Assembly (NCBI GenBank): GCA_029567375.1
Contig: JAKQLB010000337.1
Location: 1 to 39,561 of the forward strand
DNA: 39,561 nt
Reading direction: 5' to 3'
Source of the DNA: Bacteroidota bacterium
GTDB lineage: Bacteria > Bacteroidota > Bacteroidia > Bacteroidales > UBA932
The translations under genes were made by a program, and so were the position numbers. Within the stretch, counting starts at the first letter, position 1. Every line of letters starts with the position of its first letter. Under the pieces are notes generated by a model. It made no database searches and had not been told where the DNA came from. It saw only the letters and a list, made by a program, of their open reading frames with translations. Below are positions 8,602 to 21,432 of this stretch, one piece after another.

Positions 8602-10830
8602 TCAAAACTTAAATTCAAGTTTGACCATAAAATTGAATCCAGCCTGAGGAAAGAATCCCGCCTCTATATAGTCTGCGCTACCGTCAGCAAAAGTAGCTCT
8701 GTAAACCCAGGCATCGGCCACATATTTGCGGTTGAACAGATTGTCGGCATAAAGCGAGATACCGATATTTTTCCATGTATAATGCGCATCTGCCGAAAAA
8801 ACAGTATATGCCGGCAGGGAACGCTCATCACAAGAGGTGTTGTCATAATACTGTTTGCCAACATATTTACCACGCAAAGAAAAAGAAAGTTTGTTCAGAG
8901 GGGTCCAGGTGACCATAGCCATTCCTACGATAGGCGGGGACATCAATATCTCTCCATTTTCGATGTGTTGTACTACCTGTGGGAGGGGATTCCATTCGTC
9001 AGGGTTGTCATATTTATCCACCCACAGGTTGCACTCCGTGATGCGGTTGCGACTCAATGCCAGATTGGCGTCAAACCTAAGTCTTCGCAGTGCCTGCCAG
9101 CCGGCAGAGAGTTCGATGCCCCGCCTGTAACTGCGCTCCACATTCTCCTTGACTCTGTATCCTATTTCTGTAATTTTACCGGTCTCAAGGAGCTGGTTAT
9201 GATATTCCATAAGGTAGATATTTGCCGAAAAGGCAAAAACAGGCGAAGTATAATTGTATCCGAACTCCCAGTCCAACATCCGCTCGGGAAGAATCCTTTC
9301 CCCCTCTCCTGCCTTGATAGCCTCCTTGATATCACTGCGCGAAGGTTCCTTGTGAGCCACTGACAGCGATGCATAAGCAGCTGACCGACTATCGAAACTC
9401 CAGGAGAATCCCCCTTTGGGGTTGAAGAAATTATAGACGAAATCTTTATCCAACGCGACGAAATCCTTGTCAATACCGGATAGCTTGTAATCAACATTGC
9501 GATACTGGAGATCGCCGTAGAGATGCAACCTGCCGTCGATAATAGTGCCTTCACCTCGCAAGAAGCCGGAAATATCCCTTTTTAGGCCCCGATTGAGATA
9601 CCAGCTCCAATCATCCGGAATATTCTCATTGTATTTCGCCCAAATCAAATTTCCGTAGTGGTCACCGTCATAGAGCGACCAGGAGAGATTGCCCAACAGA
9701 AAAAATCCCTCTCCGGAGTACTTTAGATTGGTAGTAGCAGTAAAACTGTTGTTCTCCATCTGCTGGCGAACAATAACATCGCTTCGCTTATAAAGCACCC
9801 CACCTACTCTCTGCTCCTGCAATCCGTAATCGGAAAATTTCTTCCCTGCCTTGTAATTCTCATAATAACCTGCTCCACGGGTATAATTGAGAGTGGCACT
9901 CATAGAGAGGTGCGGAGAAAATTGATGCACCCAAATACCTTGCAAATGGTTCTGTAAATAGTTGTCGGTTTCGTTGTCGTAATAGCACAAATGCCCCGAA
10001 TCATCAGTGTATTCTCCTGCCGGATTATACCTGCGGTCGCTCTCCAGCATATCAGCCGGAATACCCTCCCAGGTTATACCGCTGCGCTGTTTGCCGAGAA
10101 TCCAGTTGAGCCGTAGGGAGTTGGAACCACGTAGCCACCCCAAAGTCGCATAAGCGGAGTGAACTCGCGCAAAGGCATTTCGTATATAGCCCTCAGTAGT
10201 ATTGTATGAGTAGTACATATCGAACGAGAGACCGCTCTTACCACGTCCCGTACCGGCGCCGACAGTGGCACTGCCGGTGAGCCACGAGCCTCCGGAGAGT
10301 GCAATTGTGGCATAGGGTTTCTCCGTGCCCCCAAGAGTGCTCATATTGAGAGTTGCACCGAAGGCACCCGCTCCGTTGACCGAAGTACCTGCGCCCCTCT
10401 GCAGTTGCACCAATTCGAGAAATCCCGTAATAGCGGGAATGTTGACCCAGAAGACCTTCTGCGACTCTGCATCATTGAGTGTGATGCCGTTGATGTTGAC
10501 ATTGATGCGGGTGGCATCGCTGCCCCTGACCCTCATCTTTGAGTAGCCCAGGCCGGTGCCCCCTTCATTAGTGGCCACAACGGAGGGCTGCAGCGAGAGC
10601 AGCATCGGCAGTGAGGTCATGGTGCCTGCTTTCGAGAGTTGCTCCCTCTTAATCTCGGTGGAAGTGACAGGTGTTCCGGATTGCGCCCTTGAGGCGGTCA
10701 CGATGGTACTGTCGATGGTGTAATGCTTGTGTGATTCGTCTGAATCCGGCACGACGTTCTGTGCCAATGGTTGTGCGTAAGAGAGCGCACAAAGCAGCAG
10801 AAATGCTGCTGAAATCAATGTTTTTTTCAT
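8602..10830 (-). CDS. TonB-dependent outer-membrane receptor, probably for thiamin (OMthi/OMR1-type)
   Basis: 742 residues. Signal peptide MKKTLISAAFLLLCALSYAQ. The plug domain runs from about residue 55 to 165 (MRVRGSDATRINVNINGITLNDAESQ, shown here in part as RVRGSDATRINVNING, then LELVQLQRGAGTSVNGAGAFG). A 22-strand-type barrel follows and ends with the terminal phenylalanine (FMVKLEFKF) recognised by the Bam complex. The function assignment rests on the TPP riboswitch placed directly before its start codon. Thiamin-regulated TonB receptors of this kind are established in Bacteroidota, where they work with the inner-membrane transporter PnuT. No pnuT or thiamin kinase gene is adjacent here, so inner-membrane uptake must be encoded elsewhere. 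Substrate could be thiamin or a precursor or phosphate ester. Confidence 0.92.
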   Translation of the reverse strand: MKKTLISAAFLLLCALSYAQPLAQNVVPDSDESHKHYTIDSTIVTASRAQSGTPVTSTEIKREQLSKAGTMTSLPMLLSLQPSVVATNEGGTGLGYSKMRVRGSDATRINVNINGITLNDAESQKVFWVNIPAITGFLELVQLQRGAGTSVNGAGAFGATLNMSTLGGTEKPYATIALSGGSWLTGSATVGAGTGRGKSGLSFDMYYSYNTTEGYIRNAFARVHSAYATLGWLRGSNSLRLNWILGKQRSGITWEGIPADMLESDRRYNPAGEYTDDSGHLCYYDNETDNYLQNHLQGIWVHQFSPHLSMSATLNYTRGAGYYENYKAGKKFSDYGLQEQRVGGVLYKRSDVIVRQQMENNSFTATTNLKYSGEGFFLLGNLSWSLYDGDHYGNLIWAKYNENIPDDWSWYLNRGLKRDISGFLRGEGTIIDGRLHLYGDLQYRNVDYKLSGIDKDFVALDKDFVYNFFNPKGGFSWSFDSRSAAYASLSVAHKEPSRSDIKEAIKAGEGERILPERMLDWEFGYNYTSPVFAFSANIYLMEYHNQLLETGKITEIGYRVKENVERSYRRGIELSAGWQALRRLRFDANLALSRNRITECNLWVDKYDNPDEWNPLPQVVQHIENGEILMSPPIVGMAMVTWTPLNKLSFSLRGKYVGKQYYDNTSCDERSLPAYTVFSADAHYTWKNIGISLYADNLFNRKYVADAWVYRATFADGSADYIEAGFFPQAGFNFMVKLEFKF

Positions 10831-10833
10831 AAA

Positions 10834-10912
10834 AATCCTCCCTACGCCGGTATTATCCGGATCAGGTTTAGTGGGTGTGTTCTCAGCCCCCGCAAGGGGA
10901 GCACCCCCGATT
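10834..10912 (-). promoter_or_regulatory. TPP riboswitch (THI element)
   Basis: Minus strand shows the conserved THI-box blocks in order: CGGGGGTGC, a hairpin arm CTCCCCTTGCGGGGG, GCTGAGA, then ACCTGATCCGGATAATACC and GGCGTAGGGA. A closing P1 stem can form between AATC (complement of 10909-10912) and GATT (complement of 10834-10837). The aptamer ends only three nt before the ATG at 10830, and its 3' edge carries GGGAGGA, which could act as a ribosome site. There is no room for a separate terminator, so control is most likely of translation start: TPP binding closes P1 next to the start codon and shuts off the receptor gene. Confidence 0.94.
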
Positions 10913-10934
10913 GTTAATAAATCTATGTCAAAGA

Positions 10935-18732: not shown

Positions 18733-19575
18733 ATGAGATACATACTTTCACTTCTGGTGCTTCTTTGCACCCTTACAACATCTTGCAGTCAACCGCAAGT
18801 ACGATACACTCCCGAAGACAAAGCCTCCTACGAGAGACTGCTGGAGCGGATGTTGCCTCACAGGGCGCAACCATTGGATCAGTTGGTAATAATGACTGCA
18901 CTTCATAAACTCGGCACCCCCTATGTTGCAGGAACTCTTGAACAGGACCCAGAGATGCTCACTGTCTGTATGAACAAGACCGACTGCATCCTTTTTGTTG
19001 AGATGTGCCTGGCATTTTCACTCACCCTAAAGGAGGAAAATCCCGACTTCGACTCCTATTGCGACAATCTATTGAAACTCCGTTACCGCAACGGTATCGT
19101 GGAAGACTACTCTTCGCGCATCCACTACACCTCGGAATGGATCAGGCAAGCTACCGAGAGAGGTATTATGGAAGAGATTACCGCGGAGATAGGAGGTATT
19201 ATCTGGCCTCAAGAATTCTCCTTTATGAGCACCCATACCGATTCATACCGCCAACTCAGGGAAAATCCCTCTCTTGTGGAAAAGATCCGCACTGCAGAGG
19301 AATACCTCAACGCTTTCGAATATTACTATATCCCTAAAAATGAAATTGCCGCCTGTGAGCATCTGATCTATGACGGCGATATTATCTGCTTCAATAGCAC
19401 AGCCAAGGGACTCGATATAGCCCATGTAGGCTACGCATATTGGCAGGGAGATCAATTGACCTTTATCCACGCCTCTTCGGTTGAAATGGAGGTGGTAATC
19501 AATAAAAAGCCGCTGACAGAGTATATCAGCGGCATTAAAACCAACAACGGCATCAGGGTAGTACGGCTCAAATAA
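18733..19575 (+). CDS. DUF1460 lipoprotein, N-acetylmuramoyl-L-alanine amidase-like (NlpC/P60-fold)
   Basis: 280 residues. Lipoprotein signal MRYILSLLVLLCTLTTSC with cysteine 18. The rest matches the DUF1460 family: LGTPYVAGTLEQ, the nucleophile cysteine C85 in NKTDCILFVEM, and the histidine in LDIAHVGYAY. These correspond to the Cys-His site of a papain-like/NlpC fold. Family members cleave amide bonds in peptidoglycan fragments in the periplasm, so a role in wall recycling is likely. The ATG lies 21 bp past the end of RNase P RNA, so expression may depend on read-through from the rnpB promoter. The last codons contain the intrinsic terminator of the convergent lyase gene. Confidence 0.88.
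   Translation: MRYILSLLVLLCTLTTSCSQPQVRYTPEDKASYERLLERMLPHRAQPLDQLVIMTALHKLGTPYVAGTLEQDPEMLTVCMNKTDCILFVEMCLAFSLTLKEENPDFDSYCDNLLKLRYRNGIVEDYSSRIHYTSEWIRQATERGIMEEITAEIGGIIWPQEFSFMSTHTDSYRQLRENPSLVEKIRTAEEYLNAFEYYYIPKNEIAACEHLIYDGDIICFNSTAKGLDIAHVGYAYWQGDQLTFIHASSVEMEVVINKKPLTEYISGIKTNNGIRVVRLK
19501..19533 (-). terminator. Intrinsic terminator of the lyase gene, inside the convergent DUF1460 coding sequence
   Basis: Perfect 8-bp stem GCCGCTGA (19509-19516) / TCAGCGGC (19526-19533) with a 9-nt loop. On the minus strand the stem is followed by TTTTTATT, making a good terminator 66 nt after the lyase stop codon. On the plus strand no U-run follows, so it is one-way. Confidence 0.78.
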
Positions 19576-19598: not shown

Positions 19599-21047
19599 TT
19601 ACAAACTATCACCGAAATCCTTCCTGAACTTCTCCACGAGTCTTGAAGGCCAGTCGGTAAGAGGTTCCAATTCTCCCATAAAGAATCTCAGCACAGGGGG
19701 CTCGTAGGTAAATCTCAAGCCACCGATAAGGTGCCTGTTCTCATAGAGCCAGGTGAGACGATCGAGCGCATACATTGTCTGTGAAAGGGTAAATACCCTT
19801 CGGGGGAATGCGAGGCGCAGCAACTCTACATCCGCAGGAATATCGTTGCCCTTTTCATCCCTTACGCTAGAAGCCGTACCCCGCTCCATGCCCCTGACTC
19901 CGGAGACTATATAGAATGCAGCTGCAAGTGCTCCTGCGGGATATTCATGTTGGGGGATGTGTTCACAGAATTTACCTGCATTGACGTGAGCTCCAAGCAC
20001 ACCTGCAGGAGTCACCATAGGAATTCCTGCCTTCACGGCATTGTCCACGAAGTACTTGATGAAACTGACACTTTGTTTGATCATCGTCTCATCAATGGTC
20101 TCATAGATTCCCACTGCCATCGCCTCAATCTCTCTGATGGACATTCCACCATAGGTGAGAAATCCCTCGAAGAGGGGAATAAGCGGTTCCATCGTCATAT
20201 AAAGTTCCCTTACATTGGTGCAGATACCACCTCCTCGCGATGAGGTAAGTTTTCTTGCAGAGAAATATACGAGGTCGGCAAGTCCCGTCATCATCTTTAC
20301 GATGTCAGCCATCGTATTCTCTTTCCATTTCTCTTCGCGTTGCTTTACCAGATATGCGTTTTCGCCCAGTAGACTGGCGTCAAGAACGAGCATTATGTTG
20401 TATTGATCTGCCACCTTGCGCACATCCATCATATTTCTGATGGAGAAGGGTTGTCCTCCGATTAAATTTGTAGAGGCCTCCATACGGATGAATGCGATGT
20501 TCTGAGCTCCGTTCTCCTCAATGGCGGCCACAAGTTTATCGATGTCGATATTACCTTTGAAGGGGTTGGAGGATTCAAGTTCAAGTGCCTCATCGTGCAG
20601 GAGCTCGATTACTTTGCCACCCATTTCCGTGATATGTGCCAGTGTGGTGGTGAAATGGTAGTTGGTAAGTACTATCTGACCGGGTTTGATGAAGGCCTTG
20701 GCAATGATGTTCTCGCAGGCACGTCCCTGGTGAGCCGGAAGGAGGTATTTCTTGCCAAGAACTTCCTTTACACCCCTGTGCAGGCGCTCAAAGGACTCCG
20801 AGCCTGCATAAGCGTCATCCGCCCTCATCATCGCTGCCAGCTGGTTATCACTCATGGCATTGGTGCCGCTGTCGGTAAGCATATCCAGGAAGACATCCTT
20901 TGTAGTAAGTTTAAAGGTGTTGTAACCCGCCTCCTTAATGGCGTCGCGACGGCGCTCTATCGGCACCAGATGAAGTTTTTGTACAATTCTTACTTTGTGG
21001 AGTTCCAGAGGAATCTCCTCGCCTGAGAAAAATTTAATGTTTGCCAT
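19599..21047 (-). CDS. PLP-dependent beta-eliminating lyase (tryptophanase / tyrosine phenol-lyase family)
   Basis: 482 residues. Family landmarks: DMLTDSGTNAMS, DDAYAGSESF (Y80, equal to the catalytic Tyr71 of tyrosine phenol-lyase), LPAHQGRACENI, FTTTLAHI, NLIGGQPFS, D223 that holds the PLP ring nitrogen, PLP lysine K266 in FSARKLTSSRGGG, GVRGMERG, and RLAFPRRVFT near the end. The cytoplasmic enzyme should split an aromatic amino acid into pyruvate, ammonia and indole or phenol. The arginine that follows D-A/S in the classical enzymes (DATR or DSAR) is leucine here (DASL), and the region after the lysine differs, so this is a divergent subfamily and substrate cannot be read from the enzyme alone. 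The upstream leader with six Tyr codons points to tyrosine and not tryptophan. It is a single-gene transcript with a terminator at 19501-19533. Confidence 0.9.
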   Translation of the reverse strand: MANIKFFSGEEIPLELHKVRIVQKLHLVPIERRRDAIKEAGYNTFKLTTKDVFLDMLTDSGTNAMSDNQLAAMMRADDAYAGSESFERLHRGVKEVLGKKYLLPAHQGRACENIIAKAFIKPGQIVLTNYHFTTTLAHITEMGGKVIELLHDEALELESSNPFKGNIDIDKLVAAIEENGAQNIAFIRMEASTNLIGGQPFSIRNMMDVRKVADQYNIMLVLDASLLGENAYLVKQREEKWKENTMADIVKMMTGLADLVYFSARKLTSSRGGGICTNVRELYMTMEPLIPLFEGFLTYGGMSIREIEAMAVGIYETIDETMIKQSVSFIKYFVDNAVKAGIPMVTPAGVLGAHVNAGKFCEHIPQHEYPAGALAAAFYIVSGVRGMERGTASSVRDEKGNDIPADVELLRLAFPRRVFTLSQTMYALDRLTWLYENRHLIGGLRFTYEPPVLRFFMGELEPLTDWPSRLVEKFRKDFGDSL

Positions 21048-21092: not shown

Positions 21093-21121
21093 AAAAAAAA
21101 ACCCGCTCCAAAAGGACCGGG
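21093..21121 (-). terminator. Attenuator terminator (strands 3:4) before the lyase gene
   Basis: Minus strand CCCGGTCC-TTTT-GGAGCGGG followed by TTTTTTTTT (complement of 21093-21101). One G-G mismatch in an 8-position GC-rich stem. It lies 45 nt before the lyase ATG (21047) and after the leader stop codon, so it acts as a premature terminator and not as the end of a gene. Confidence 0.85.
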
Positions 21122-21152
21122 ACATGAAACAGACATTGAATACAAAAGGGTA

Positions 21153-21218
21153 CTATCCCCGGTCGGTGGAACGGCGGTAATAGTAGTAGTAATAGTTGTT
21201 AGTCAAAAGTCTGTTCAT
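21153..21218 (-). CDS. Tyr-rich leader peptide (21 residues, six consecutive tyrosines)
   Basis: ATG at 21218, TAG at 21155-21153. The peptide begins MNRLLTNN, continues with six Tyr (codons TAT TAC TAC TAC TAT TAC, positions 21194-21177) and ends RRSTDRG. It contains no tryptophan or phenylalanine. A -7 box lies at 21251-21258, giving a 5' leader of about 29 nt. The stop codon falls inside strand 2 of the attenuator, and the Tyr codons form strand 1, so the coding and folding signals are interlocked as in trp, his and phe leaders. The chance of six Tyr codons in a row at this exact place is very low. It is presumably not a functional protein but a sensor of tRNA-Tyr charging or of tyrosine. 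Confidence 0.88.
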   Translation of the reverse strand: MNRLLTNNYYYYYYRRSTDRG

Positions 21219-21250
21219 CTCAAACGTGCACTCTTATGCAGTGCTGTAGG

Positions 21251-21258
21251 CAAAGGTA
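21251..21258 (-). promoter_or_regulatory. -7 box of the lyase leader transcript
   Basis: Minus strand TACCTTTG matches TAnnTTTG; transcription would start near 21247, about 29 nt before the leader-peptide ATG. A -33 TTTG is not evident. It is divergent from the tRNA-Thr promoter at 21312-21319. Confidence 0.6.
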
Positions 21259-21311
21259 AGTAAAATAACGTGAAGTTGTTCACCTAAAACTCTTTTTCTT
21301 TAAAAAATTTG

Positions 21312-21332: not shown

Positions 21333-21406
21333 GCCTTTTTAGCTCAGTTGGTTAGAGCGGCTCATTCGTAATGAGCAGGTCGCGGGTTCGAGTCCCGTGA
21401 AAGGCT
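21333..21406 (+). tRNA. tRNA-Thr (anticodon CGT)
   Basis: Acceptor GCCTTTT pairs with GAAAGGC (one T-G). The D-arm is GCTC/GAGC, the anticodon stem GCTCA/TGAGC has loop TTCGTAA (anticodon CGT), and the T-arm is GCGGG/CCCGT with TTCGAGT. 74 nt without an encoded CCA. The transporter gene starts 27 bp downstream with no terminator between, so the tRNA and the mRNA probably share one transcript that is cut by tRNA processing enzymes. Confidence 0.95.
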
Positions 21407-21432
21407 CAAAAAATTCATCTCTAAGATTCATT

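Follow-up and report, generated by a model that had tools for sequence, protein, structure and literature searches.

Organization of the locus

The window, i.e. the whole stretch of DNA that was analysed (39,561 nt; contig JAKQLB010000337.1 of the Bacteroidota assembly GCA_029567375.1), carries on its minus strand a gene for a 482-aa PLP-dependent beta-eliminating lyase of the tyrosine phenol-lyase (TPL)-like branch (19599–21047; assigned by profile, PDB comparison, residues and structure) and, upstream of it, a short leader region (21258–21093, minus strand). On the strand opposite the lyase, about 0.9 kb beyond its 3' end, lies an RNase P RNA gene (RF00010, 18393–18717, plus strand), and a 280-aa frame (18733–19575, plus strand) is situated between this gene and the lyase. 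A TPP riboswitch (RF00059, 70.6 bits) was found at 10821–10918 on the minus strand, at the 5' end of a 742-aa frame (8602–10830, minus strand). An inverted repeat, GTGAA-CAAC-TTCAC (21270–21283, minus strand), is located just upstream of the leader promoter, between the promoter and a divergent tRNA-Thr(CGT) gene (21333–21407, plus strand); it is also present in locus L004 and is a possible regulator site.

All leader elements are on the minus strand. The predicted promoter has a Bacteroidota-type −7 box, TACCTTTG (21251–21258), recognized by its sequence; the consensus TAnnTTTG is the one named for Bacteroidota-type promoters in the consulted part of PMC9723704. A TAnnTTTG box was also found upstream of the leader in 11 aligned loci of the related lyase genes described below as group A. 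The box is followed by an ORF of 21 codons plus a TAG stop (21153–21218), MNRLLTNNYYYYYYRRSTDRG, which was recognized by ORF reading and from orthologous leaders, is predicted to be translated, and contains six Tyr codons in a row as control codons 9–14 (21177–21194) and neither Trp nor Pro. An earlier sequence-only reading of the locus had reported the box, the ORF and the Tyr run, and all three were confirmed on the sequence.

The three exclusive pairings described in the same reading also exist, apart from one mismatch each in 1:2 and 3:4. Strand 1, TACTATTACC (21176–21185), is able to pair with its partner GGGGATAGTA (21151–21160) if it is free of the ribosome, and 9/10 positions of this 1:2 pairing are paired, with one A-G mismatch. 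The 2:3 pairing joins strand 2, GACCGGGG (21164–21157), the 5' arm of the antiterminator, to TCCCGGTC (21122–21115) by 8 pairs, the last of which is G-U. The 3:4 terminator is formed by CCCGGTCC (21121–21114) and strand 4, GGAGCGGG (21109–21102), the terminator 3' arm, with 7 pairs rather than 8, a central G-G mismatch and −12.6 kcal/mol, and is followed by a T9 tract (21093–21101); strand 3 as a whole, TCCCGGTCC (21114–21122), is common to antiterminator and terminator. The leader stop codon (21155–21153, within the partner of strand 1) had been placed in strand 2, which holds for the 1:2 partner, but it lies just beyond the end of the strand used in 2:3. One pairing had been overlooked: CCGTTCC (strand 1', 21168–21174) can pair with the GGAGCGG in strand 4 and thereby supplies the outer half of the antiterminator, which becomes an extended hairpin holding both terminator arms. 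The lyase gene starts 45 nt beyond the T9 tract. The terminator hairpin (21121–21102) was absent from the output of a generic terminator scan, and a T-box or other Rfam cis-element was rejected because an Rfam scan at the gathering score gave no match in 21093–21258.

Folding of the leader at each ribosome position

The ribosome was placed on each codon in turn, its 3' edge being assumed to reach 12 nt beyond where the A site starts, and the RNA downstream of it was folded. A ribosome holding the first Tyr codon in its A site left the terminator a probability of 0.00–0.01 in 11 of 12 group A leaders and of 0.38 in the remaining one (L028), and a ribosome holding the stop codon there left it 0.74–1.00 in 12/12. 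For the window leader, the equilibrium value was 0.00 at Tyr codons 9–12, 0.85 at codon 13 and 0.96 at codon 14, and at codons 13 and 14 strand 3 was still predicted to be paired upstream (0.86) before strand 4 is made. When the free segment was shuffled and the terminator kept (six of the twelve leaders), the mean terminator probability was 0.59–0.94; the observed terminator loss was reached in 0, 0, 0, 0, 1 and 3 of 300 shuffles for L001 (the window), L007, L008, L029, L028 and L066, respectively, and values below 0.1 in 9, 32 and 23 of 300 shuffles for L001, L007 and L008. The unconstrained fold of the whole leader, which the sequence-only reading had put forward as a check, gave a z of −2.6 but is insufficient by itself to show a switch.

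Since the terminator is disfavoured with the ribosome on the first Tyr codon and allowed with the ribosome at the stop, tyrosine scarcity should give read-through. With plentiful tyrosine, the ribosome would reach the stop codon and cover strand 2, the 3:4 terminator would form, and transcription would end about 150 nt in. With charged tRNA-Tyr scarce, the ribosome would be held up at the Tyr codons, leaving strands 1' and 2 to pair with strands 4 and 3 in the extended antiterminator, and the lyase gene would be transcribed.

In the trp, his and phe leaders, a ribosome stalled by starvation on the control codons lets transcription continue. The window leader is like these attenuators in its run of control codons, the position of its stop at the competing strand, the mutually exclusive antiterminator and terminator and the predicted read-through upon starvation, and is unlike them in its target, which is a beta-eliminating lyase and not one of the classical enzymes of biosynthesis. 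A further difference is that these bacteria are stated to lack Shine-Dalgarno sequences (PMC9723704, for Flavobacterium).

Conservation of the leader

The stretch upstream of the lyase was scanned in the best 80 of 204 loci and in 61 genomes, 21 of which had a match, over 320–450 nt for frames with an ATG start and at least two Tyr codons; the upstream stretches of L159, L076, L020 and L069 were short. The same arrangement was found in 12 genomes that fall into three subclades with diverged peptides (21, 20 and 14 aa), with Tyr codons from position 9 on: subclade 1, the window type, with the leader M.R..TN.YYYYYYRRS.DRG (7 genomes); subclade 2 with the leader MRTILSNRYSYCYSRSFDRV (2 genomes, L007/L030, which are the same contig, and L008); and subclade 3 (A3) with the leader MK.I.NIRYYYRQS (3 genomes, L028, L029 and L066). 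The lyases of this group A, which are represented by 13 tree rows for 12 genomes, are on one side of a branch with a support of 97 (quick-method tree, SH-aLRT). In genome G025 (L008), the terminator and the lyase start are some 190 nt apart, and the intervening stretch carries a repeated CTGACCCCATCAGCCTACGGCAG segment (L120:557–765).

A covariance model, R1, was built from nine group A leaders. Of the 299 genomes searched from the window's family, 11 were matched by R1, at nine lyase leaders and at two new places, and the model also matched the third subclade, which had been left out of its building (E-values of 3e-5 for L066, 0.013 for L028 and 0.032 for L029). Across nine sequences, 129/129 scored cells of the antiterminator pair (reached by 6/500 shuffles). 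The close similarity of the sequences leaves little covariation: one pair was changed on both sides, from G-U to U-A, a count reached by 188/500 shuffles. The alignment of upstream regions from relatives that had been suggested in the sequence-only reading bears out the conservation of Tyr runs and stems and adds little in the way of covariation. A lack of conservation of the Tyr run or of the three stems in close relatives had been named there as an outcome that would speak against the attenuator; 12 genomes in three subclades conserve the arrangement instead.

The 3.38 Mb genome has five consecutive TAY triplets at two separate positions and the reversed-pattern control also gave 2, so that the run alone is weak evidence, and a short Tyr-rich frame might by chance have come to lie next to an ordinary terminator. 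This explanation was rejected on the basis of the conservation in relatives and the shuffle controls; with the arrangement recurring in diverged relatives, its probability is negligible. The leader combines a Tyr-codon ORF, an intrinsic terminator, an exclusive antiterminator, a release of strand 2 that depends on the codon in the folding model, and conservation. The earlier proposal of a ribosome-mediated Tyr-codon attenuator is thereby borne out in silico, and a classical attenuator of this kind is supported by conservation, ribosome-position folding and shuffled controls, all of them computational. The leader very probably responds to the charging of tRNA-Tyr in vivo.

Identity of the lyase

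NCBIfam assigned the lyase to the subfamily 'tryptophanase' (PRK13238, 573.9 bits), with scores under both equivalog cut-offs (442.5 vs 720.7 bits for TPL, TIGR02618, and 355.3 vs 825.8 bits for tryptophanase). The best PDB sequence matches were tyrosine phenol-lyases, as were the top structural hits obtained by Foldseek with an AlphaFold model (20 sequences, mean pLDDT 81.9) as query (TM 0.88 at about 40 % identity; tryptophanases 0.86). The TPL residues T124, R381 and F448 and the PLP lysine K257 (numbering from the alignment to 2ez1) are kept in 93/93 rows of the family; this residue count and the tree were made without L002 and L022, which belong to other superfamily branches, and without the incomplete L069. 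T124, R381 and F448 presumably read the phenol ring and mark the tyrosine side of the distinction between TPL and tryptophanase. Tryptophanase was rejected for the window lyase, in which Asp, Ile and His do not occupy the positions of T124, R381 and F448. In comparison with TPL (TIGR02618), the window lyase is alike in fold, PLP lysine and the three ring residues, and unlike in its identity of about 40 %, its score below the equivalog cut-off and the replacements R217L, K256R and H343L; TPL elsewhere is catabolic and TyrR-activated. Judged by its residues, the lyase is a divergent branch that keeps the putative substrate residues of TPL.

The replacements R217L, K256R and H343L relative to solved TPLs occur in 93/93 rows, and the substrate is therefore uncertain. 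They would suit, together with the failure to reach either equivalog cut-off, a working attenuator in front of a lyase that uses another substrate, such as a tyrosine analogue or another aromatic amino acid, or that has another role useful at tyrosine shortage, so that no tyrosine is made; leaderless relatives, which mostly carry TyrA (48/53), fit this as well. The phenol-ring residues, if their presumed role is right, are invariant and the leader is specific for Tyr, both of which argue against it, and we consider a lyase of this kind unlikely.

A second homologue in the window's genome (L002) has D, I and H as in tryptophanases, and its match was reported with one internal TAG. In the A3 loci (L028, L029 and L066), a second lyase frame was seen directly downstream of the lyase with the Tyr leader; in L028 it is a canonical tryptophanase by NCBIfam (L028:4149–5522, plus strand, 893.3 bits), and the beginnings of the corresponding frames in L029 and L066 are nearly the same as its own.

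Related leaders in other Bacteroidales

At the two new R1 places, a Tyr leader, MKQMINNSYYYYYYHTFMRGR up to its stop codon, precedes an SSF sodium:solute symporter (G009), and another, MYNLNNSYYYYYYRTPNGVS up to its stop codon, precedes a phenylacetate-CoA-ligase-like (PaaK-like) gene, an ACT-domain protein and a symporter (G619). The PaaK-like protein of G619 scored 459.7 bits (cut-off 646.3), and the G619 symporter is 63 % identical to that of G009; in G009 (65 % complete), no lyase match at E≤1e-100 and no match for prephenate dehydrogenase (PDH_N) were found. Tyr leaders thus occur on related SSF symporters in two genera (L179 and L180), once after PaaK-like and ACT-domain genes, and these symporters are candidates for an arylacetate or tyrosine uptake system. 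Phenylacetate-CoA ligase is an entry to aromatic amino-acid synthesis from arylacetates in anaerobes. A search of open PMC literature, as far as its texts could be consulted, gave nothing direct on this entry.

A second covariance model, R2, was built from 14 leaders (lyase, symporter and PaaK-like) and searched against 393 Bacteroidales genomes, where 35 places distributed over 30 genomes matched at E≤0.05. At E<0.001 and with the window excluded, 6/6 places were Tyr/Phe-rich leaders ahead of genes of aromatic-pathway type, and in 5/6 TyrA or PheA was the next gene or lay 1.3–2.5 kb on: the leaders precede TyrA and DAHP synthase in G280, PheA and then a DAHP-synthase-like frame in G732, an aminotransferase and TyrA in G215, an aminotransferase with TyrA 1.3 kb on in G048, an aminotransferase-like frame with TyrA 2.5 kb on in G197, and a class I/II aminotransferase with nothing more in view in G102. 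Leaders of the same aromatic-pathway kind were found in G049 and G205 at an E-value of about 0.01. Among the loci retrieved for places with E >0.006, two were further aromatic-operon leaders (L191 and L195), and visual inspection put the rest down as coding sequence, plain terminators or unclear cases. When eight aromatic-operon leaders were folded, the terminators mostly stayed formed at every codon at equilibrium and the switch appeared in a co-transcriptional measure; L183 switched at equilibrium too and L184 slightly. The PaaK-like leader L178 switched in the co-transcriptional measure and not at equilibrium, and L177 in both.

Leaders of this type normally serve tyrosine and phenylalanine synthesis in Bacteroidales; with Tyr/Phe leaders ahead of aromatic-pathway genes elsewhere, the device is ordinary and the lyase is the unusual part. 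The window leader is like these aromatic leaders in its Tyr-rich peptide, G/C terminator and long T tract, and is unlike them in that they precede aminotransferase, TyrA or PheA genes, whereas here a lyase follows and PDH_N is mostly undetected. In the consulted parts of the literature, a database-predicted attenuator is given for the pheA...tyrA operon of Bacteroides thetaiotaomicron (PMC1173090, Table 7), strong clues for leader-peptide attenuation at amino-acid operons are described for Flavobacterium (PMC9723704), and leader-like small frames are mentioned for B. thetaiotaomicron (PMC7366714); a section of a paper from 2010 states that, before its own Firmicutes case, no leader-peptide system was known outside Proteobacteria and Actinobacteria (PMC2965389). 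The sequence-only reading had known of no Tyr-codon attenuator on a TPL or tryptophanase homologue in Bacteroidota. For TPL, none was found in the open literature either; Tyr/Phe leaders as such are known in the order.

The tyrA-operon leaders resemble the lyase leader and TyrA is mostly undetected in lyase-leader genomes, as would be expected if the leader were a relic of a lost phe/tyr operon with little effect now on the lyase; the repeat-bearing sequence of about 190 nt between terminator and lyase in G025 could be read in the same way. Such a relic is very improbable given that three subclades retain the Tyr run, the terminator and the antiterminator geometry despite different sequences.

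A second clade of lyases with Tyr leaders

Tyr leaders were also found upstream of the lyase in a separate clade of the same lyase family, group B (9 loci, 7 distinct proteins; branch support 99, SH-aLRT), at L037, L039, L040, L043, L044, L046, L050, L052 and L061. The leader is of the type MHSxLSYxxxYLxYAxCYYYSYCRS (25 aa, 4 to 7 Tyr codons), with one strong hairpin spanning its stop codon, another hairpin that is A/T-rich and terminator-like, and complementary AGGTGCT and AGCAC segments in the loops. R1 gave no match on four group B loci, and folding of 7 leaders showed no consistent direction, with a probability of the terminator-like hairpin of 0.13–0.92 with the ribosome at the stop. The group B layout suggests that Tyr control of the lyase may have arisen or been rebuilt more than once. 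The MAG ADurb.Bin139 has two lyase copies, both with a group B leader (L040 and L052). Downstream of the L037 lyase are genes for a DUF819 membrane protein and an Omp85-superfamily protein, and similar-looking frames were seen in L043, L044 and L061.

The tryptophanase operon is preceded by tnaC, a short leader that arrests in response to the free amino acid. The window leader is like tnaC in being a short leader ahead of a related lyase, and unlike it in its six Tyr codons, the absence of Trp, the presence of an intrinsic terminator and a predicted control by starvation rather than arrest. The tnaC precedent raises the possibility that the lyase is a catabolic TPL which is induced by tyrosine in vivo, e.g. 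through a TnaC-like arrest peptide or through switching opposite to that modelled here, and the second lyase frame in the three A3 loci (canonical tryptophanase in L028), the undirected folding of group B and the DUF819 and Omp85-superfamily genes behind the L037 lyase could be taken in its favour. The ribosome at the stop codon favours the terminator in all twelve group A leaders, the window peptide lacks Trp and Pro, and related leaders are on biosynthesis genes; induction by tyrosine is quite improbable on these grounds, even with the TyrR activation of TPL in Erwinia and Citrobacter that is described in the part of PMC1173090 consulted.

Tyrosine pathway in leader-bearing genomes

The leader-bearing Bacteroidales group is known from metagenomes, and completeness was 51–92 % for the seven genomes with a known value. 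PDH_N was undetected in 18/19 leader-bearing genomes, the exception being G062 (group A, 11/12 undetected; group B, 7/7 tested). A TyrA of the other Bacteroidales type, searched with a query from G062 that misses some PDH_N-type genomes, was found in 0/18 of the PDH_N-negative leader genomes. Among lyase genomes in which no leader was detected, PDH_N was found in 48/53 (13/13 plus 35/40 of an order-wide sample); one of the 53, G181 (L144), has only about 110 nt upstream on its contig, the overlap between the two sets was checked by eye, and in the order-wide 40 genomes 37/38 upstream stretches were assessable, the other two being L009 and L010. The comparison of TyrA with the leader (1/19 vs 48/53) gave a Fisher p of 1.4e-11 with kinship ignored and with many of the genomes incomplete. 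Inside the window's genus, PDH_N was found in 0/9 leader and 2/11 leaderless lyase genomes (p 0.48); with PDH_N missing in 9/11 of the latter, its loss characterizes the lineage, and the association depends on kinship and may be explained by it. Chorismate synthase was found in 6/7 leader-bearing genomes tested and was missing in G012, which is 51 % complete; prephenate dehydratase was detected in all three A3 genomes and in none of the other 16 leader genomes.

Interpretation

The main reading, to which we give a probability of roughly 0.6, is that the leader senses charged tRNA-Tyr as a ribosome-mediated transcription attenuator, with the lyase most likely serving tyrosine supply. The second part follows from the occurrence of leaders of this kind on tyrosine biosynthesis genes in the order. 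Taken separately, a role of the lyase in tyrosine supply in lineages without detected prephenate dehydrogenase stands at about an even chance, and would plausibly be exerted through the TPL reaction in its synthetic direction. More tentatively, and with the odds leaning somewhat against it, Bacteroidales without prephenate dehydrogenase may make tyrosine from environmental phenol, pyruvate and ammonia by a divergent TPL under a tyr-type starvation attenuator.

The finding is most informative in the sign of the control, which is of the starvation type on an enzyme of degradative type. The sequence-only reading had been silent on this sign, and control induced by starvation is the wrong way round for an enzyme that degrades tyrosine. 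In the portions of the sources consulted, TPL is catabolic and activated through TyrR in Erwinia and Citrobacter (PMC1173090), phenol is formed from tyrosine in the gut via TPL, again in catabolism (PMC6478834), and the synthetic direction is used in biocatalysis for tyrosine derivatives with pyruvate and ammonia (PMC7431475). Neither a tyrosine-codon attenuator on TPL nor a natural tyrosine-synthetic role of TPL was found in the open PMC literature, in so far as its texts were accessible, subscription journals and preprints being outside the scope of the search. Attenuators of this kind are familiar as such; what is new is that one precedes a TPL-like lyase in Bacteroidales in which TyrA was not detected.

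The predicted control points to tyrosine supply and the best family label reads 'tryptophanase', so that annotation would miss the prediction. If the lyase synthesizes tyrosine, anaerobic communities would have a natural route from phenol to tyrosine, and an enzyme known from catabolism would serve an anabolic purpose in nature; apparent tyrosine auxotrophs would then be partly self-sufficient, and phenol from other microbes would be a cross-fed nutrient.
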